From an uncultured Alphaproteobacteria bacterium (GTDB lineage Bacteria > Pseudomonadota > Alphaproteobacteria > GCA-2731375): a stretch of DNA of 64,000 bases. The stretch's first letter is position 1, and each line of letters opens with the position of its first letter. The position numbers were made by a program, and so were the translations under genes. The stretch covers positions 1,132,557 through 1,196,556 of the forward strand of contig CATOSZ010000003.1 of the NCBI GenBank assembly GCA_951812805.1, in the 5' to 3' direction. Of the stretch, positions 26,493-56,427 are shown one piece after another. Under the pieces are notes generated by a model that was not told where the DNA came from, ran no database searches, and was given only the letters and a program-made list of their open reading frames with translations.

Positions 26493-26554
26493 GCCCAAAA
26501 GGAGTCAGGACTTGAATGTTGAATTCAACATTCAAGTCCTGACTCCTTTTGGGC
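26493..26554. repeat. 62-bp perfect palindrome with no spacer
   Basis: The sequence from 26493 to 26554 is its own reverse complement, centred on the GAATTC at 26521-26526. Half-arms read GCCCAAAAGGAGTCAGGACT then TGAATGTTGAA. It lies between the ends of two minus-strand genes (VOC upstream, DUF1330 downstream). It is AT-richer than its surroundings. A transcript would form a 31-bp stem without a loop. The rest of 26365-26617 shows no gene. Confidence 0.9.
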
Positions 26555-29151: not shown

Positions 29152-29233
29152 CCTGGTCGGCTCGCGCCCCCGCCCCAAGCACCCATAGTGTGCACCTTTG
29201 GGGTGGTTGGGGCGGGGGCGCGAGCCGACCAGG
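29152..29233. repeat. 33-bp inverted repeat with 16-nt loop
   Basis: Arms 29152-29184 and 29201-29233 pair at 32 of 33 positions (start CCTGGTCGGCTCGCGCCCCC). The loop is ATAGTGTGCACCTTTG. It fills the gap between the glyoxalase-II-like gene and the MFS gene, both plus strand. No T-run follows either arm. The MFS start codon is 26 bp downstream. Confidence 0.88.
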
Positions 29234-48353: not shown

Positions 48354-48521
48354 CTAGCCCGCCTTTCTCCCCCTCTCCACGGCCTCAGTCGACCTGGGTC
48401 GAGTCGTCTCGGCGAGGTGCGGGCCCGAAGGCGTAGCGGGGCTACGTCGAGGGACCGCGCCTCGCCGAGCGGCCGGCCCAGGTCGACTGACGCCATGGAG
48501 AGGGGGAGAAAGGCGGGCTAG
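48354..48521. repeat. 168-bp nested palindrome (element A)
   Basis: Arms 48354-48379 and 48496-48521 are a perfect 26-bp inverted repeat (CTAGCCCGCCTTTCTCCCCC...). Pairing continues inward through AGTCGACCTGGG / CCCAGGTCGACT and CTCGGCGAGG / CCTCGCCGAG to a central GTAGCGGGGCTAC. It lies between rpoH (3' end) and the SDR gene (5' end), both leftward. Its inner part is about 90% identical, in inverse orientation, to 56293-56400. Outer stems of the two copies differ by paired substitutions. Confidence 0.92.
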
Positions 48522-48556
48522 CGGAGAAGGGAAGCGAGGGGGATCGCCGCCGGGAG

Positions 48557-49399
48557 CTAGTTGGCCGTGTGCAGCATCGCCTGGCGGAACTTCTTCATCG
48601 CCGCCGCCTCGATCTGGCGGATCCGTTCCCGGCTGACGCCGTACTTTTCGCTCAAAGTTTCGAGCGTCGGCTTGTCTTCCGTCAGGTGGCGCTGGGTCAG
48701 GATGTCCCGCTCCCGCGGGTTGAGGCGGGAGAGTGCACCCGGGATCATCGCCCGCCGGCGCGACATTTCATCCGCCTCCAGCGCGTAGCCTTCGGGATCC
48801 TGGCTTTCGTCGACCAGCGAATCCTCGAAGGTCGTGCTGCCGTCGGCGCCGAGCGGCGCGTTCAGCGACTGGTCGGACCGCCCGATACGACCGTCCATCG
48901 AATAGACGTCGGCGAGGCTGACGCCGAGCTGGGTGGCGATCTTTTTTGCCACCTCCGCGGTGACGCCGTCGGCGCCGAGATCGCCGTGCTTGGCCTTCAG
49001 GGCACGCAGATTGAAGAACAGCTTCTTCTGCGCCGCCGTCGTGCCGACACGGACGATATGGGCATTGTGCATGACATACTGGCCGATCGCGGCCCGGATC
49101 CACCAGGTGGCGTAGGTGGAGAAGCGATTGCCCATTTCAGGGTCGAACTTCTCCGCCGCCTGCATCAGGCCGACCGAGCCCTCGGCGATCAGATCGGCGA
49201 GCGGCAGGCCGTAGCCGAGCGAGCCGCGCGCGATCTTCACGACCAGGCGCAGATGGCTGCCGACCAGCTTGTCGATCGCCTCTTCGTCGCGCTCGTCACG
49301 CCAGCGGCGGGCCAGCTCACGCTCCTCCTCCGCGGCGAGCAGAGGATAGCGGGCGATGCGCCGCATGAAGAGATCTACCGTCGTGGCTTTCGTATCCAT
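48557..49399 (-). CDS. rpoH: RNA polymerase sigma-32 factor
   Basis: A 280-residue heat-shock sigma factor. Region 2 has LVGSHLRLVVKIARGSLGYG, LPLADLIAEGSVGLMQAAEK and NRFSTYATWWIRAAIGQYVM. The RpoH box follows as AAQKKLFFNLRALKAKHG. Region 4 is RLNPRERDILTQRHL and LETLSEKYGVSRERIRQIEA. Length and start (MDTKATTVDLFMRRIARYPL) match alphaproteobacterial RpoH. It directs polymerase to heat-shock promoters. A GAGGG site precedes the ATG. It is monocistronic, followed by the large palindrome, which could be its 3' structure. Confidence 0.95.
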   Translation of the reverse strand: MDTKATTVDLFMRRIARYPLLAAEEERELARRWRDERDEEAIDKLVGSHLRLVVKIARGSLGYGLPLADLIAEGSVGLMQAAEKFDPEMGNRFSTYATWWIRAAIGQYVMHNAHIVRVGTTAAQKKLFFNLRALKAKHGDLGADGVTAEVAKKIATQLGVSLADVYSMDGRIGRSDQSLNAPLGADGSTTFEDSLVDESQDPEGYALEADEMSRRRAMIPGALSRLNPRERDILTQRHLTEDKPTLETLSEKYGVSRERIRQIEAAAMKKFRQAMLHTAN

Positions 49400-49690
49400 G
49401 ATGCCCTCACATACCTGTTCTCAACCCTGCCCCATATCCCGGATCGCTGTATCGCCGATCACGGTTAACAAACCATGCGCCGCGCCGCGATCCCGCTTTT
49501 TTGCGGGTTTAAGCCAACACTTTCCCAACTTGACGTTGGTTCCGGAGCCTATCAGATATGGTGAACGCAGCGCGAACATTCAACCCGCCGCATGGGCCGT
49601 CTCACGTCCAAGTGATGTTTGTGGCGCGTCTGATCACAATTGAAAAATCATTTCGTTTCAGTGCGTTATGCGAACGGATCTTTCGCCTGC
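49400..49690 (-). promoter_or_regulatory. rpoH upstream region
   Basis: About 290 bp upstream of rpoH with no supported gene, noticeably more AT-rich than neighbours between 49600 and 49690. On the rpoH strand a short hairpin CCCGC-(A6)-GCGGG occurs at 49492-49507, about 93 bp before the ATG. It could be a leader structure. I do not assign promoter boxes. Confidence 0.4.
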
Positions 49691-49721
49691 GCGACTGACT
49701 GAACAATATTCAGTCAATCGC
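49691..49721 (-). terminator. hairpin downstream of the TauD-like gene
   Basis: TGACTGAA and TTCAGTCA pair around CAATA, extended by GCGA / TCGC with one mismatch. It starts about 25 bp past the stop of the leftward dioxygenase gene (49747) and so may terminate it. There is no strong T-run. Confidence 0.5.
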
Positions 49722-49746
49722 CTCCGGCCCCGGGATCGACACCGTG

Positions 49747-50820
49747 CTAAAGCGCGACGGCACCGTCCGCGCGGCGCGCACGCGGGACCCGGTTGACGCC
49801 CGCCAAAAGTTCCGCCGCCGTCCAGCCGAGCTGCCCGTGGCGACCGATGCCATAGCGGACCACGGCGTCGTCGGAGAACGCCCGCATGTCCTCGATGTCG
49901 AGCCAGATACGTAGCAGCATGCGTTTGCGCGCTTCGTCGGTGACGGGAGCGTGGGCGGGTCGGCCGTGCAGCACCGTGTAGTTCGAGCAGAACTGCACGT
50001 CGCCGGCATGGAAGGGAAACTCGAAGCGGTTCTCGTAGGCGACCTCGTCGAGGATATCCAGGATGGCGCTGTCCTCGGCGCTCATCTCTTCGCCCTTGCG
50101 TTCATAGGCGTTGCGGATCCAGGACCGGTTGTAGCGACAGGAGATCTGGCCGCCCGAATGGGAAAACACCGGGACCCGGTAGCCGGACGTAATCCCCTCA
50201 CCCGGGCCGTGCTCGCCCATGCGGGACCATTCAAAGCCCTGGTAGAGCCGTTCCATCGCCTCGGGCGCGCGGGCCAGCATCTCGTTGTGCACGGTGACGG
50301 AGCTGGCGAGCCAGCTCGGCGGATCGTCCGGCGCCTGCTGCACGCAGAGCAGGGTCACCACATCCATCAGGTCGACATGCAGGCTGGAAACGCGGGGCAG
50401 CCCGACGCCGCGGCTGCCCTGGCTCGGCCGCTTGGCGCCGTCGGTCACATAGTGGATCAGGCCACCCTCGCCGTTCTGGCTGAGCCCGGTGCCGACATGC
50501 TGGCACAGACCCCAATACATGGCGTCGAGGTCGTCGCTGCCATGGCCCTCGACCGGAAAATTCCGCATCAAGGCGAAACCACGCCCGGTCCGCAGATCGT
50601 CGCGCAAGCGCGCCAGCCGCGGCGCCAGGCCCGGCAGCGGGAAATCCGCCGCCGTCACCGCGGCGAGCGGCAGCCCCCGCGCCTTGACCGCCACGAGCGC
50701 CGCCTCCAGCTCCGCCCGCTCGTCCGCCTCGAGCCGATACTCCCACGCTCGCGTCGCCTGCATTTCGGCGCCGGTCCAGGCGCTCGGGTGATCGACCCGG
50801 GCTCGTAGTACGTTGGTCAT
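49747..50820 (-). CDS. TauD/TfdA-family dioxygenase (large type)
   Basis: A 357-residue Fe(II)-dependent oxygenase. The iron motif is H148-x-D150 (SSLHVDLMDVV), the distal His is in NYTVLHGRPAHAP, and the Arg is in RKRMLLRIWLDIEDMR. It is longer than typical TauD because of an N-terminal extension of about 70 residues, as in a subgroup often annotated as TauD-like oxygenases of unknown substrate. The ATG at 50820 is the only good start. It is divergent from the glutathione S-transferase gene. Confidence 0.85.
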   Translation of the reverse strand: MTNVLRARVDHPSAWTGAEMQATRAWEYRLEADERAELEAALVAVKARGLPLAAVTAADFPLPGLAPRLARLRDDLRTGRGFALMRNFPVEGHGSDDLDAMYWGLCQHVGTGLSQNGEGGLIHYVTDGAKRPSQGSRGVGLPRVSSLHVDLMDVVTLLCVQQAPDDPPSWLASSVTVHNEMLARAPEAMERLYQGFEWSRMGEHGPGEGITSGYRVPVFSHSGGQISCRYNRSWIRNAYERKGEEMSAEDSAILDILDEVAYENRFEFPFHAGDVQFCSNYTVLHGRPAHAPVTDEARKRMLLRIWLDIEDMRAFSDDAVVRYGIGRHGQLGWTAAELLAGVNRVPRARRADGAVAL

Positions 50821-50958
50821 GATCTCAGTCTCGCTTCCTCGCCATCCCTTCGACCGCCCGGCGACATTTGCGCCCGACCGTCGCTCGGCCCATCATGGCC
50901 GAAAGGCGGCGGGGGAGACAAATCCCCCGGCCGCAACACAACCTCGGAGGAAGTTCCC

Positions 50959-51597
50959 ATGGCGAAACCCGTCCTGCATGGTCCCGGCTTTTCCACCTAT
51001 GTGCGCACGGCGCGCCTGGCGCTGGCCGAGAAGGGCATCGACTACGATCTGAACGAGTTCAACTTCATCGCCGACGGCGTGCCGGCCGATCACCTGGCGC
51101 GCAATCCCTTCGGCAAGGTGCCGGCCTTCAGCCATGGCGATTTCGAAGTCTACGAGACCGTCGCCATCGCCCGCTATATCGACGAGGCCTTCGAGGGCCC
51201 GGCCCTGCAACCGGCCGACGCCGCCGGCCGTGCCCGGGTCACCCAGGCCTCGGCCATTATCGACAGCTACGCCTATCCGAGCGCCATCACCGGCGTCGTG
51301 ATCCAGCGCGTCGTCGTGCCGATGATGGGCGGCGAGGCCGACGAAGCGGTGATCGCCGAAGCGCTGCCGAAGGCCGCCCAGGCGCTCGGCGTGCTGAACG
51401 CGATGATCGGCGATCGCGCCCATCTGGTCGGCGACGCGCTAAGCCTCGCGGATCTGCATCTGGTGCCGGTCTACGACTACTTCCGCCAGACCCCGGACGG
51501 CCAGGGCGTCCTCGCCGATATGTCCGGCCTGCAGCGTTGGTGGGACGGCATAGCGGCCCGCCCCTCGGTCACCGCAACGACGCCGCAGCTCGGCTGA
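50959..51597 (+). CDS. glutathione S-transferase family protein
   Basis: A 212-residue soluble GST. The N-terminal thioredoxin-like domain has KPVLHGPGFSTYVRTARLAL, NPFGKVPAF (cis-Pro) and YETVAIARYIDEAF (glutathione-binding Glu-Thr). The C-terminal helical domain has HLVGDALSLADLHLVPVYDY. Ser/Tyr of GFSTYVRT is the likely activating residue. GGAGG lies 7 nt upstream of ATG 50959. It converges with the IPNS-like oxygenase gene. Substrate unknown. Confidence 0.9.
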   Translation: MAKPVLHGPGFSTYVRTARLALAEKGIDYDLNEFNFIADGVPADHLARNPFGKVPAFSHGDFEVYETVAIARYIDEAFEGPALQPADAAGRARVTQASAIIDSYAYPSAITGVVIQRVVVPMMGGEADEAVIAEALPKAAQALGVLNAMIGDRAHLVGDALSLADLHLVPVYDYFRQTPDGQGVLADMSGLQRWWDGIAARPSVTATTPQLG

Positions 51598-51616
51598 GCG
51601 GCAGGCACCCGCGTCG

Positions 51617-52588
51617 CTATTTCCGGTAGCTGAAAGACGCGTCGAAGCGGGACTGGATATAGGCACCGACGGTCGTCGGCTCGTACGCCGGCGCCTCGCC
51701 GGCGCGGCAGGCGATCGCCGGGTCGACCACCGTGTCGACGTCGGGGTCGACCGCGACGACCAGGGAATAGCGCTCGAGGCCCGAGGTGTTGACCACCCGG
51801 TGCGGGGTCGAGGCGAAGCCGTCGTTGGTCCATCGGGCCAGCAGGTCGCCGACGTTGATCACCAGGGTCCCCGCAATGGGATGCGCGGTGACCCATTCGC
51901 CGGCCTTGTTCTGCACCTGCAGGCCGCCGACCGAATCCTGGCACAGCACGGTCAGGCAGCCATAGTCGGTGTGCGGGCCGACGCCGAACTGGTCGGCGCC
52001 CATGTCGGGGGTCTGCGGCGGGTAGTAGACGACGGAGGCGCGCGAGATCGGCTGACGGTAATGGGCGACGAAGCTGTCCTCCGGCAGGTCCATGGCGACG
52101 GCGAAGGCGCGCAGCAGCTCGCGGCCCAGCGCGTTGCCCGCCTCCAGCCAGGGATAGAGGCCGGCGCGGAATTCCGGCATGGCGGCCGGCCAGCGGTTCT
52201 TGGCGTGGAAGGCGTTGCCGGGATCGTCGGCCTCGACCTCGATCCCCCAAACGAAGCTTTCCTTGAGGTCGGACTTCACGTCGTCGCGCATGCGGGCCTG
52301 GCCGACGGCGAGAAAGCCGCGATGGCGGTCGTTGACCTCGACCTCCAGCTTGGCTTCCATCGGCTGGGCGAAGAAGCGGCGCGACGCGGCGCGCGCGTCC
52401 TCGATCACCGTGTCGGGAATGCCGTGGTTCGAGACATAGAAGAAACCCACCGTCTCCGCCGCATCGCGCATCGCCGCCGCCACCCGGGCGGCGCCGCCGG
52501 GCTCGCGCGCCAGCAGGGGGCCCGCATCGATCACCGGGATTTCCGAGGCTTCGATCTCGCGCGCGGTGGCATAGCTCATGACCGTCAA
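51617..52588 (-). CDS. isopenicillin N synthase-like 2-oxoglutarate/Fe(II) oxygenase
   Basis: A 323-residue IPNS/DOXC-type oxygenase. The N-terminal DIOX_N domain is IPVIDAGPLLAREP and ETVGFFYVSNHGIPDTVIED. The iron triad is H206, D208 (VGPHTDYGCLTVL) and H263 (STPHRVVN). The RxS motif for 2-oxoglutarate is R273-x-S275 (ERYSLVV). Bacterial members hydroxylate or desaturate small N-containing molecules. It overlaps the CMD-family gene by 4 bp (52585-52588), so it is the last gene of a coupled leftward operon. ATG 52588 and 52579 are both possible. Confidence 0.88.
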   Translation of the reverse strand: MTVMSYATAREIEASEIPVIDAGPLLAREPGGAARVAAAMRDAAETVGFFYVSNHGIPDTVIEDARAASRRFFAQPMEAKLEVEVNDRHRGFLAVGQARMRDDVKSDLKESFVWGIEVEADDPGNAFHAKNRWPAAMPEFRAGLYPWLEAGNALGRELLRAFAVAMDLPEDSFVAHYRQPISRASVVYYPPQTPDMGADQFGVGPHTDYGCLTVLCQDSVGGLQVQNKAGEWVTAHPIAGTLVINVGDLLARWTNDGFASTPHRVVNTSGLERYSLVVAVDPDVDTVVDPAIACRAGEAPAYEPTTVGAYIQSRFDASFSYRK

Positions 52589-53163
52589 TCCTTCCCGTAG
52601 TAGCCGATGGCATCGCCCGCGAGGCTGACGCCGAGCCCGTTCAGCAGCCGGTTGGAATAGTTGAAATAGGCGCAGACCTGGTTCACCTCCAGGATCTCGC
52701 CGTCGCTGGCGCCGGCCTCGCGCGCCGCCAGCACGTCGGCCTCGACCATCTCGCCGGGCGTCGCCGTCAGCTTGCGGGTATAGCGTAGCAGCGCCAGCTC
52801 CTTGCCGGCGAACACCCGCTCGGGCGCGCCGGCCTCGAGGGCCTGATAGATCGCTTCCGAGCGCGCCTCGTCGTCGATCAGTTCCGCCGCATTGCGGAAG
52901 TGATGGGTCAGGCTGTATTCGCAGTCGTTGGTCATCGAGGTATAGACGGCGACCGTCTCCAGGAACCAGAGCGGCAGGACGTTGTCCTCGTGGTGCAGCA
53001 CGCTTTTGTAGAGCACCAGGTGCCCTTCCATCGTGTGTGGGCGCAGGCTGTGGGCGCGCATGACGTTGTCGACGGTGTTCTTGGGCGTCTTCACCCGCTC
53101 GTACATCTCCCGCAGGAAGCCGGTGGCCGCCTCATAGGAAATCATCTCGATCCAGGCTGACAT
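52585..53163 (-). CDS. carboxymuconolactone decarboxylase (AhpD-like) family protein
   Basis: A 192-residue all-helical CMD-like protein: GFLREMYERVKTPKNTVDNV, MRAHSLRPHTMEGHLVLYKS, PLWFLETVAVYTSMTNDCEY, SLTHHFRNA. The AhpD CxxC pair is reduced to a single Cys (NDCEYSLTHH), as in the peroxidase-related subgroup, so thiol-disulfide chemistry is doubtful. It lies between the creatininase-type gene (17 bp) and the oxygenase gene (4-bp overlap). Role in the pathway unknown. Confidence 0.85.
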   Translation of the reverse strand: MSAWIEMISYEAATGFLREMYERVKTPKNTVDNVMRAHSLRPHTMEGHLVLYKSVLHHEDNVLPLWFLETVAVYTSMTNDCEYSLTHHFRNAAELIDDEARSEAIYQALEAGAPERVFAGKELALLRYTRKLTATPGEMVEADVLAAREAGASDGEILEVNQVCAYFNYSNRLLNGLGVSLAGDAIGYYGKD

Positions 53164-53180
53164 CGGCGCGTCCCCTCCCC

Positions 53181-53963
53181 TTACGGTGTGTCTTCGGCCA
53201 GGAACGCTTCATAGTCCGCGATCACGTCCGGCACCAGGATTTCCAGCAGGCGGCGGCCCGCCTCCGGCGTCGCGAGAGAGGGGTCGGAGCCGATCCGCCC
53301 GTCGGGAAACCAGTGCCGGTGATGGACCGCGTCATAATGCCGGTCGCCGCCGAAGTCGCGGTAGTAGCCGGGCGAGAGCCGCGCCGGCTTGGCCATCTCG
53401 ACCCGCTTGATCGCGTCGGGATAGGCCGCCTGGGTGATCGCCACCTCGCTCGGCGTCGCGTGCAGCCCCTCGTCCTCGCCGTAGAGGTCGTGGCGCAGCG
53501 TGTTCGCGCCCTCGTACTCCCACCAGCTTCTCAGGCGACAGCGCAGGGGCGACGCGCCGGCGCGATCGGCGCGGAAACTGGCGTCGGCATAGAGATCCTG
53601 GAAGGCGGCGTTGGCCGGCGCGATGTTGCCGCCATGGCCGTTCAGAAAGAACACCCGCTCGAAGCCATGGCGGACGAGGGAGCGGACATAGTCCCGGATC
53701 ACGGCCATCAGGGTCTCCGCCCGGAGCGTGACCGTGCCCGGAAAGTCGAGATTGAACTGCGCGACGCCCAAGGTGATCGTCGGCCCGACCAGAACCCCGT
53801 GCGCCGTGCCGGTGGCGAGCGCGATCTCCTCCGCGCAAATCGCGTCCGTGGCGATCAGGCCGTTCGGGCCGTGCTGTTCCATCGAGCCGATGGGCACGAT
53901 GATGCCCTTCGAGGTCTCGAGATAGGCCTCGACCTCGGGCCAGGTGCTGAGCGCCAGCCGCAT
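53181..53963 (-). CDS. creatininase-family amidohydrolase
   Basis: A 260-residue creatininase/FAPy-deformylase-type metal hydrolase. Metal ligands are E29 and H31 (GSMEQHGPN), D40 (LIATDA), the His of FFLNGHGGNI, and the late Glu of ATPSEVAITQ. The family opens cyclic amides (creatinine, mycofactocin precursors, formamidopyrimidines). ATG 53963 begins the conserved first strand. It follows the RidA gene by 17 bp. In this operon it probably hydrolyses a ring or amide made by the oxygenases; the substrate is inference. Confidence 0.9.
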   Translation of the reverse strand: MRLALSTWPEVEAYLETSKGIIVPIGSMEQHGPNGLIATDAICAEEIALATGTAHGVLVGPTITLGVAQFNLDFPGTVTLRAETLMAVIRDYVRSLVRHGFERVFFLNGHGGNIAPANAAFQDLYADASFRADRAGASPLRCRLRSWWEYEGANTLRHDLYGEDEGLHATPSEVAITQAAYPDAIKRVEMAKPARLSPGYYRDFGGDRHYDAVHHRHWFPDGRIGSDPSLATPEAGRRLLEILVPDVIADYEAFLAEDTP

Positions 53964-53980
53964 GATGCCACGCCTTGCCT

Positions 53981-54373
53981 CTAGTCGTCCGCGATGAAGG
54001 CCATGGCGTCGACCTCGACGTCGATGTCGGGATCGAAGAAGCCCGCCAGGCCGACCCAACCGGTGGTCGGCAGGATCTCGCCGAAGACCTCGGCATGGGC
54101 CCGGCCCGCGTCGGGCCAGCGCGACATGTCGGTGAGGTACATCCGGGTGCGAAAAACATCGGAGAACGAGGCGCCCGCCTGGCTAAGCGACTGGCCGATG
54201 ATCTCGAGGCAGAGCCGGGTCTGGCGGTAGACGTCGCCCGGATAAAGGATGGTGCCGTCGGGTGCTGCCGGCGAGGTCATCGAGAGGTCGATGATGTTGC
54301 CGAGGCGCACCGCGCGGCTGAATCCGGCCTGTGCCTCCCAGGGCCGGCCACTGGAAATGTTCTGGCGCTTCAT
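53981..54373 (-). CDS. RidA/YjgF-family enamine deaminase-like protein
   Basis: A 130-residue Rid-family protein: GFSRAVRLGNIIDLSMTSPA, YRQTRLCLEIIGQSLSQAGA, RTRMYLTDM and the terminal VEVDAMAFIADD. The catalytic Arg of canonical RidA corresponds to the Arg of VFRTRMYLTD. These trimers hydrolyse reactive imines or enamines. GGGAGGGACGAGG precedes ATG 54373. It is the first gene of a leftward operon, divergent from the ABC permease at 54495. Confidence 0.9.
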   Translation of the reverse strand: MKRQNISSGRPWEAQAGFSRAVRLGNIIDLSMTSPAAPDGTILYPGDVYRQTRLCLEIIGQSLSQAGASFSDVFRTRMYLTDMSRWPDAGRAHAEVFGEILPTTGWVGLAGFFDPDIDVEVDAMAFIADD

Positions 54374-54494
54374 CCTCGTCCCTCCCACGAACCCAACCGG
54401 TGCCGGCATAGCATATTTCCAGGCCTTTTCCCTTGTCGGCGTGGGCCGGGGCGTGCCATCAAGCGAGGGGGCGCGGCGAGGGGGCGGGGCGAGC

Positions 54495-55283
54495 ATGGTG
54501 AAACGACACCGCTGGTGGCTCGACACCGTGCAATTCATCGCGCTCGTCGCCGGCCTGATCTATATCGCCGTGCTGGGTGCCGAACAGCTCAACTACAATT
54601 GGCAATGGTACCGGGTGCCTAAGCTATTCTGGCGGGTGATCGACGGCGAGCTGATCTGGGGCCCGCTGATCGACGGCCTGCTGGTCACCTTCGAAATCAC
54701 CGCCTGGGCTTTGCCGTTGGCGATCCTCATCGGCCTGACCACGGCGCTGCTGCGACGCTCCAACTCCTTCGCCGGGCGTTGGGTGGCGACCGCCTATCTC
54801 GAGATCATCCGCTCGACGCCGATCCTGGTGCAGGTCTACATCTTCTATTTCATCATCGCGCCGATCTTCGGCATCCAGGCCTTCTGGGCCTGCGTCCTGG
54901 CGCTGGCCTTCCATGAGGGCTCCTTCACCGCGGAGATCTTCCGCTCCGGCATCGAGTCGGTCGCCAAGGGACAGTGGGAGGCCAGCGACTCGATCGGCCT
55001 GAACCGCGTCGACACCTACCGCTATATCGTCCTGCCGCAGGCCGTGCCGCTGATGCTGCCGCCCCTCACCGGCCAGGTCGTGACACTGATCAAGCATTCC
55101 TCGATCCTGAGCGCAGTGGCGATCTTCGACCTCACCACCATGGCCCTCGACCTCGTGGCCGAAACCTTCATGGCCTTCGAGATCTGGCTCACCGTCGGCG
55201 CCATCTACCTGGTGGTGACCGGCTCGCTCTCGCTGCTGGTCGGCCTGTTCGAACAGCGCATCCGCGCGAGGTACCGGCGATGA
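54495..55283 (+). CDS. polar amino-acid-type ABC permease 1
   Basis: A 262-residue HisMQ/GlnP-type permease: GPLIDGLLVTFEITAWALPL, YLEIIRSTPILVQVYIFYFI, FHEGSFTAEIFRSGIESVAK, then the EAA-type loop QWEASDSIGLNRVDTYRYIV and LPQAVPLMLPPLTGQVVTLI. ATG 54495 starts the conserved part; the frame is open upstream only as a shadow of the RidA gene. It overlaps permease 2 by 4 bp (ATGA). The transporter should import a small N-containing solute, the probable substrate of the neighbouring catabolic genes. Confidence 0.92.
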   Translation: MVKRHRWWLDTVQFIALVAGLIYIAVLGAEQLNYNWQWYRVPKLFWRVIDGELIWGPLIDGLLVTFEITAWALPLAILIGLTTALLRRSNSFAGRWVATAYLEIIRSTPILVQVYIFYFIIAPIFGIQAFWACVLALAFHEGSFTAEIFRSGIESVAKGQWEASDSIGLNRVDTYRYIVLPQAVPLMLPPLTGQVVTLIKHSSILSAVAIFDLTTMALDLVAETFMAFEIWLTVGAIYLVVTGSLSLLVGLFEQRIRARYRR

Positions 55284-56161
55284 CCGCCCGGATGCGCTTC
55301 GGCTGGCTCGACGTCGTGGTCATCGGCTGCGTTGTGGCGCTGCTCGCCTATGTCGCCTACCGGGTGCATGGCCACCTCGTCTACCACTGGAACTGGGCGG
55401 AGCCGTTGCAGTTCTTCTTCCGCCGCGACGAGGCGGACGGCGGCTGGGTCCCCAACCTGCTGATCGAAGGCGTGATCATCACGCTGCGCGTCTCGCTCTG
55501 GGGGGCGGTGCTGGGCATGGCGATCGGCCTCCTCGCCGGCCTCGGCCGGATCAGCCAGGTCGCCCTCTTCCGCATGATCTCGCGCGGTTACGTCGAGCTG
55601 GTGCGCAACGTCGCACCCGTGCCCTTCCTCTTCATCATGTTCTTCTTCGTCGGCAACCAAATCCTGAAACCGCTGGGGCTGGAGGGCGTGCAGGACGCGG
55701 TATCGCCCGCCACCGGCGGGGTGCTGGAACTGATGTTCGGCGAGTTGAACCTGCTGCGCAACTTCGCCGCCGCGACCCTGGCGCTGGCCCTCTACGAAGG
55801 GGCCTATATCGCGGAGATCGTCCGTGCCGGCGTGCTGTCGATCGAGCGCGGGCAATGGGAAGCGGGCGACAGCCTCGGCCTCTCACGCCTGCATCAGCTG
55901 CGCCATGTGATCCTGCCGCAGGCCGTGCAGCGGATCACGCCGCCGCTCGCCAACCAGTCGATCCAGCTGATCAAGGACAGCTCCCTCGTCTCCCTGCTGT
56001 CGATCCAGGAGATGACCTTCATGGGCCAGGAGATCGCGCATTCGACCTCGCGCTTTTTCGAAACCTGGATCATCGTCGCGGCGATGTACTTCGTGGTATG
56101 TTTCGGCCTGTCACGGATCTACGCTCGTCTGGAACGACGCATCAACAAGAGCCGCCGCTAG
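55280..56161 (+). CDS. polar amino-acid-type ABC permease 2
   Basis: A 293-residue HisMQ-type permease: NLLIEGVIITLRVSLWGAVL, RGYVELVRNVAPVPFLFIMF, LYEGAYIAEIVRAGVLSIER and QWEAGDSLGLSRLHQLRHVI, LPQAVQRITPPLANQSIQLI. It forms a heterodimeric channel with permease 1, whose gene it overlaps. Its TAG stop (56159-56161) overlaps the first bases of the large palindrome B that separates it from the binding-protein gene. Confidence 0.92.
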   Translation: MTARMRFGWLDVVVIGCVVALLAYVAYRVHGHLVYHWNWAEPLQFFFRRDEADGGWVPNLLIEGVIITLRVSLWGAVLGMAIGLLAGLGRISQVALFRMISRGYVELVRNVAPVPFLFIMFFFVGNQILKPLGLEGVQDAVSPATGGVLELMFGELNLLRNFAAATLALALYEGAYIAEIVRAGVLSIERGQWEAGDSLGLSRLHQLRHVILPQAVQRITPPLANQSIQLIKDSSLVSLLSIQEMTFMGQEIAHSTSRFFETWIIVAAMYFVVCFGLSRIYARLERRINKSRR

Positions 56162-56427
56162 TCCGCATTTCTCACACTATCCATGGCCTCAGCGGCGCTG
56201 TGGGCCCGACAGGGAAGGAGCGCTGCGCCGTTCGATGTGGTTCATCGTACAAGCAGTGCGACGCACCCTGTCGGGCCCACAGCGCCGCCCGGAGGGTCGA
56301 CCTGGGCCGGCCGCTCGGCGAGGCGCGGTCCCTCGACGTAGCCCCGCTACGCCGTCGGGCCCACTCCTCGCCGAATCGACTCGGCCCAGGTAGACTGAGG
56401 CCATGGATAGTGTGAGAAATGCGGACT
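56160..56427. repeat. 268-bp nested palindrome (element B) with two internal hairpins
   Basis: Outer arms 56160-56192 and 56395-56427 pair perfectly over 33 bp (AGTCCGCATTTCTCACACTA...). They enclose two hairpins. B1 is a perfect 22-bp stem, 56193-56214 with 56266-56287, with a 51-nt loop. B2 (56293-56394) is homologous to the core of element A at 48389-48486. It lies between the second permease and the binding-protein gene of one transporter operon. The whole gap 56162-56536 contains no gene. Confidence 0.93.

Follow-up and report, generated by a model that had tools for sequence, protein, structure and literature searches.

The closest described counterparts of the elements analysed here are the bacterial MITEs of IS5- and IS630-type elements, for example RUP and the Correia elements, and the mosaic palindromes of rhizobia (RIME and ABC) and Brucella (Bru-RS), with reported sizes near 100 bp; the insertion sequence IS711 sits inside Bru-RS. 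The REP sequences are shorter palindromes of 20–40 bp that carry GTAG or CGTC tags (PMC3733652). Template switching is established in E. coli as a process that makes quasipalindromes more perfect (PMC7202029), and it has been proposed as a source of apparent compensatory changes in RNA genes (PMC8794818).

The elements reported below were found in a window of 64,000 nucleotides (that is, the whole stretch of DNA analysed) from the genome of an uncultured alphaproteobacterium. They share with MITEs a short, non-coding, multi-copy and intergenic nature, terminal inverted repeats, TA duplication and insertion polymorphism, but are set apart by near-perfect 30-bp arms and two structured hairpins conserved phylum-wide. 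Like RIME/ABC and Bru-RS, with which they were compared by description only, they are dispersed palindromic mosaics in Alphaproteobacteria, and, in a parallel to IS711 within Bru-RS, one copy contains an IS5-family insertion sequence (IS); the size near 100 bp reported for those repeats is a difference. The integron attC sites likewise keep a fold while the stem sequence varies, but the cassette and integrase context of attC was not seen at our elements. REP/REPIN sequences with their RAYT transposases are also dispersed extragenic palindromes moved in trans, as may be the case here, whereas the present elements measure ~265 bp and have CTAG/YTAR ends. Finally, template-switch hairpins (PMC8794818) and quasipalindrome correction in E. 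coli (PMC7202029) provide a precedent for one arm being copied from the other with seeming compensation, but they have been described for RNA genes or reporter loci and not for a dispersed mobile element.

Palindromes of the window and their family in the host genome

Two related palindromes of the window, A and B, belong to what we call family I, and a third element of the same anatomy lies in the window too. Their parts are as follows.

48354..48521, minus strand: element A, a family I copy without hairpin P2, reversed relative to B
48354..48388: A, left arm of the outer stem P1, with the CTAG end
48389..48486, minus strand: A, hairpin P3, the core with the CGTAGC..GCTACG tip
48487..48521: A, right arm of P1
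56158..56429, plus strand: element B, a complete family I copy (P1-P2-P3)
56160..56192: B, left arm of P1
56192..56288, plus strand: B, hairpin P2 (module B1 of the first-pass annotation)
56225..56254, plus strand: tip of P2, GCGCCGTTCGATGTGGTTCATCGTACAAGC, common to class-wide relatives
56293..56394, plus strand: B, hairpin P3, a 102-nt core with 14 occurrences in the genome
56395..56427: B, right arm of P1
61635..61902, plus strand: third element, of the AGAGC-ended type, with the P1-P2-P3 anatomy and P2 tip of B but different P1 and P3
61669..61764, plus strand: third element, hairpin P2
61780..61859: third element, hairpin P3

A pair-by-pair table of P1 bears out, at the very same coordinates, the five base-pair-preserving substitutions by which the first-pass annotation had distinguished the two left arms, namely 48358/56162 (C/T) and the differences at 48363, 48370, 48372 and 48375 (all C/A). 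Their opposite-arm partners in A lie at 48517, 48512, 48505, 48503 and 48500, and every one of the ten pairs is Watson-Crick. The sixth difference (48380/56184) is paired only in B, again as had been stated. The list of differences is thus correct, but a single-arm difference at 48491 had been overlooked: 48384/48491 is C.C in A, whereas the equivalent 56188/56399 is C:G in B. The core of A is matched at C3:1180945-1181043 on the minus strand. Chance is ruled out as the origin of the palindrome by the 33 perfect arm pairs of B, which stand 202 nt apart, and the view that neither A nor B is a plain terminator is upheld, since neither is followed by a T run. Judging from gene names read from translations, A has rpoH and an SDR gene as neighbours, and B sits between the genes for the permease and the substrate-binding protein of an ABC transporter, with its left CTAG providing the stop codon of the permease gene. 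Two further palindromes were noted in the window, a perfect one with 31-nt arms and zero spacer (26493-26554) and an inverted repeat with 33-nt arms of 97% complementarity and a 16-nt spacer (29152-29233).

Searching the host genome with the 56293-56394 core, as the first-pass annotation had proposed, retrieved 14 full-length copies, A and B included. The aligned copies share one plan, an outer stem P1 (~33 bp, with CTAG ends) and the hairpins P2 and P3, and P1 arms are present in all 14 as well as in the relatives treated below. P2 is complete in 11 copies, partly deleted in one, shortened in another and absent from A. The description of B as A with an inserted hairpin is valid as a comparison, but with A as the only copy devoid of P2 the hairpin was most likely lost from A. 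The elements are 168-306 bp long and show no open reading frames except those that result from reading across a palindrome. All 14 fall outside genes when judged by ORFs and GC3; in five, the CTAG of the element supplies the TAG stop of the preceding gene. No covariance model of Rfam 15 reached its gathering score, either across the window or at the elements.

Ends, target sites and candidate transposases

Insertion polymorphism is apparent among relatives of family I in the genome G006. The site occupied there by the copy L171 is empty in G009, and that of L156 is empty in both G009 and G002, the joined flanks being contiguous without a gap. Twelve G006 copies are flanked as YT^AGAGC...GCTCT^AR, which points to duplication of TA within YTAR. 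Another subtype (L057, L072) has TACC...GGTA ends flanked by TAA and resembles an IS of the host genome that makes TNA duplications. The empty sites, the TA duplication and these alternative ends together indicate that P1 acts as a terminal inverted repeat, with different ends in different lineages. Having no coding capacity, terminal inverted repeats and, as found for the G006 relatives, a target-site duplication with precise empty sites, family I is best read as a short non-coding MITE-like element, its dispersal being seen here and the empty sites being known from relatives.

Such an element would be moved by a transposase acting in trans on the P1 ends, probably one of the IS5 family in at least some lineages. 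The outer P1 sequence of the elements in G746, TTAGAACGTGTTTACGATCT, abuts the C-terminus of a transposase remnant in Janthinobacterium, which is placed in the IS5 family by PF13586 and by NF033580 (E=1.5e-11, below the whole-protein cut-off of the model). Intact IS5-family copies elsewhere have ends similar to the G746-type P1, and this P1 shows both IS5-like terminal repeats and the YTAR/TA target. The ends of the window's own family (GCCCGC...) were matched to no IS, and an autonomous partner of family I or of the G006 elements was not found when DDE_3 and DUF4096 domains were searched for in G000 and G006; nor do any P1 arms lie 1-2 kb apart among the sites listed for G006.

Two candidate partners were considered and rejected. 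An IS630-type DDE_3 IS occurs at 27 places in the host genome, but it has TACC ends and makes TNA duplications, and these are not the ends of family I. These places in the host genome, G000 (L217, L218, L220-L244) are mostly near-identical copies of a 1.17-kb IS with the ends TACCAGTCGACA...TGTCGATTGGTA and 3-bp TNA duplications, which has probably been active recently. The single DUF4096 match, in G317, turned out to be an IS that had inserted into a P3 hairpin. IS5-family (DUF4096) insertions occupy the same CCTAG within P3 in L275 (G317:C66) and in L178, and P3 seems, on the strength of these two copies, to be an insertion hotspot.

Coupled change of the two arms

The proposition that the two arms change together is strongly confirmed. 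When 11 sequences from several genomes were aligned, 92.9% of the cells paired, compared with 33-42% after the partners had been slid by 1-3 columns; two-sided changes were found in 68 of the 96 pairs, and two-sided cells numbered 199 against 61 in shuffles. Neighbour-joining trees of the short elements, with events reconstructed by parsimony, gave for 52 copies (six subfamilies, four genomes) 45 same-branch changes of both partners, where 4.3 are expected for random partners, and 41 of the 45 led from one Watson-Crick pair to another. Family I taken alone shows 17 such changes versus 0.85, and one P1 pair in G006 is seen in all four Watson-Crick forms. Independent change of the arms, which the first-pass annotation had set against its own structural claim, does occur (140 pair-breaking events), yet the coupling is still about tenfold above expectation. 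That all this is an artefact of recent duplication, assembly error or chance can practically be dismissed: some draft genomes have the P2 motif at the ends of contigs, as is typical of repeats, but the 14 copies are at separate loci, the slide and shuffle controls argue against it, and independent genomes carry relatives, including the complete single-contig genomes G588, G746 and G541.

The matching might conceivably reflect co-evolution of the terminal repeats with their transposase, the two P1 arms being bound by one protein without any need for folding. This would suit the terminal-inverted-repeat behaviour of P1, its TA/YTAR ends and the resemblance of a relative's P1 to IS5-family ends. 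We regard it as quite improbable, because paired changes also occur in the non-terminal stems P2 and P3 (7 and 2 events, respectively, in family I), and the arms match over ~33 bp as opposed to roughly 16-22 bp in the IS copies examined.

Selection for a structured RNA (an attenuator, an mRNA stabilizer or an sRNA) maintained by compensatory mutation would be the customary interpretation of such very strong covariation, and two further observations could be cited in its favour, the location of B within an ABC-transporter gene cluster and a small excess of G.T over A.C (15 versus 3) in P2 of the cross-genome alignment, which runs contrary to the reading that we prefer. However, the breaks caused by transitions (95 in six subfamilies) show no strand preference, with 51 G.T and 44 A.C (p=0.54); the lean varies among subfamilies and is opposite in family I (6:15). 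In addition, some genomes have an inverted P2 in the place of P3, which puts the motif on opposite strands, the orientation and neighbouring genes vary among copies, and Rfam offers no match. The equality of G.T and A.C breaks disfavours RNA selection as the main cause, leaving DNA-level processes, and we consider a structured RNA an unlikely explanation.

The first-pass annotation had left the choice between selection for the folded form and a mechanism copying one arm from the other. Copying is favoured by L004 and L005, which represent one insertion in a locus that was duplicated: if the bases at the outermost boundary are disregarded, the two elements are told apart only by a single P1 pair, of which both partners differ (T:A in one, C:G in the other); of the selective options, the RNA version is the one that lost ground. 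On balance, we think it probable that family I is a MITE-like mobile element and that the match between its arms is maintained mainly at the DNA level. One arm would serve as the template for repair or replication of the other, and the pattern suggests quasipalindrome template switching in a hairpin or cruciform as the route. The paired differences between A and B may then be point mutations whose transfer to the partner arm took place in an ancestral copy, from which a subfamily inherited them. Homogenization of the arms is incomplete, since single-arm mismatches survive and in some subfamilies have been amplified; one with an A/G mismatch at one P1 pair has multiplied in G006. Transitions make up 31 of the 41 paired changes, a spectrum that does not distinguish copying from compensation. 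The rate of change in paired columns is roughly half that in unpaired columns, which suggests that constraint operates too, and this we count against our preferred reading.

Relatives across the phylum and the folded form

A search with the P2 tip pattern returned 29 contigs, all titled Alphaproteobacteria (Hyphomicrobiales, Afifella, Hoeflea and others), on which the elements are mostly ~270 bp long, share the three-way-junction fold and differ completely in P1 sequence. The invariance of the P2 tip loop in the alignment A1 is partly by construction, since the loci were gathered by the tip pattern, and the loop is variable in a wider search with a covariance model of P2 (R1). The matches of this model, whose E-values are only rough, number 124, 59 and 40 in three genomes of the class (P3 as an inverted P2 being counted in), the highest count in any genome being 124. 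The class is probably Alphaproteobacteria, to judge by the titled records. Matches extend to 17 genomes outside it, in other classes of the phylum; the out-of-class elements inspected are built of arms, P2, a junction resembling CCCGAAGGG and P3. The tip pattern had no match in viral contigs, searches of plasmids with whole elements yielded almost nothing, and our literature search found no paper with the tip sequence or describing the element. Copies located in annotated records are without any annotation.

P3 is an inverted P2 in G006 and in some copies of G317 (for L156, an alignment score of 41 versus 11±2 in shuffles), so each end there reads terminal repeat, then hairpin; the same could not be shown for B or the third element. 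The copies L213-L215 of G073 combine the P2 tip with a P3 tip of the CGTAG...CTACG type known from family I of the window, and hairpin modules thus appear to be exchangeable between lineages. Several irregular loci were also recorded. A chimera at G000:C12:18264-18472 (L026, L081) has an AGAGC-type left end (CTAGAGCACGGTCCG), an unrelated interior and a right end of the family I type (CTGAGGCCATGG...GCGGACTAA). L076 (G000:C3:148740) is a lone right arm of an element of the third type, its partner missing, and is probably a remnant. At L066, L067, L060 and L051, simple hairpins of ~40-55 bp abut three-way-junction elements and end at or near the same CTAG.

That the P1-P2-P3 fold has been conserved for so long throughout the phylum suggests selection for the fold itself, which we again count against our preferred reading. 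Folded DNA would be the selected form if a transposase or host protein recognized the three-way junction or cruciform, whether single-stranded or extruded. Recurrence of the fold phylum-wide with diverging stems is in keeping with this, as are the conserved single-stranded stretches (AAGGCGCG, CAAGC, CGCAACG and CCGAAGG) and the halved rate of the paired columns, and the symmetry of G.T and A.C breaks is also compatible with a two-strand cruciform. Mismatched subfamilies nevertheless keep multiplying, copies without P2 or with damaged hairpins occur, and we know of no protein partner for the fold, so that we entertain selection on folded DNA as a possibility of a rather doubtful kind. Equally tentative is a broader proposal, that the elements form a phylum-wide mobile class whose ends, each a terminal repeat with a subterminal hairpin, are recognized as folded DNA; the stems would drift freely, with the fold and a few unpaired bases preserved, and a single recognition system could thus move elements with divergent stems and exchangeable hairpins.

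A functional RNA is commonly regarded as proven when covariation is strong, yet this mobile repeat shows such covariation without an RNA strand signature, which calls for caution in covariation screens. With many copies per genome, the elements offer a natural system for measuring arm-to-arm copying. The motif has R1 matches in 42 of the 385 genomes sampled from the class, yet it is unannotated in the records found and absent from Rfam. If mobility depends on the fold, these elements would represent a type of folded-DNA transposon end that is widespread and as yet has no name.
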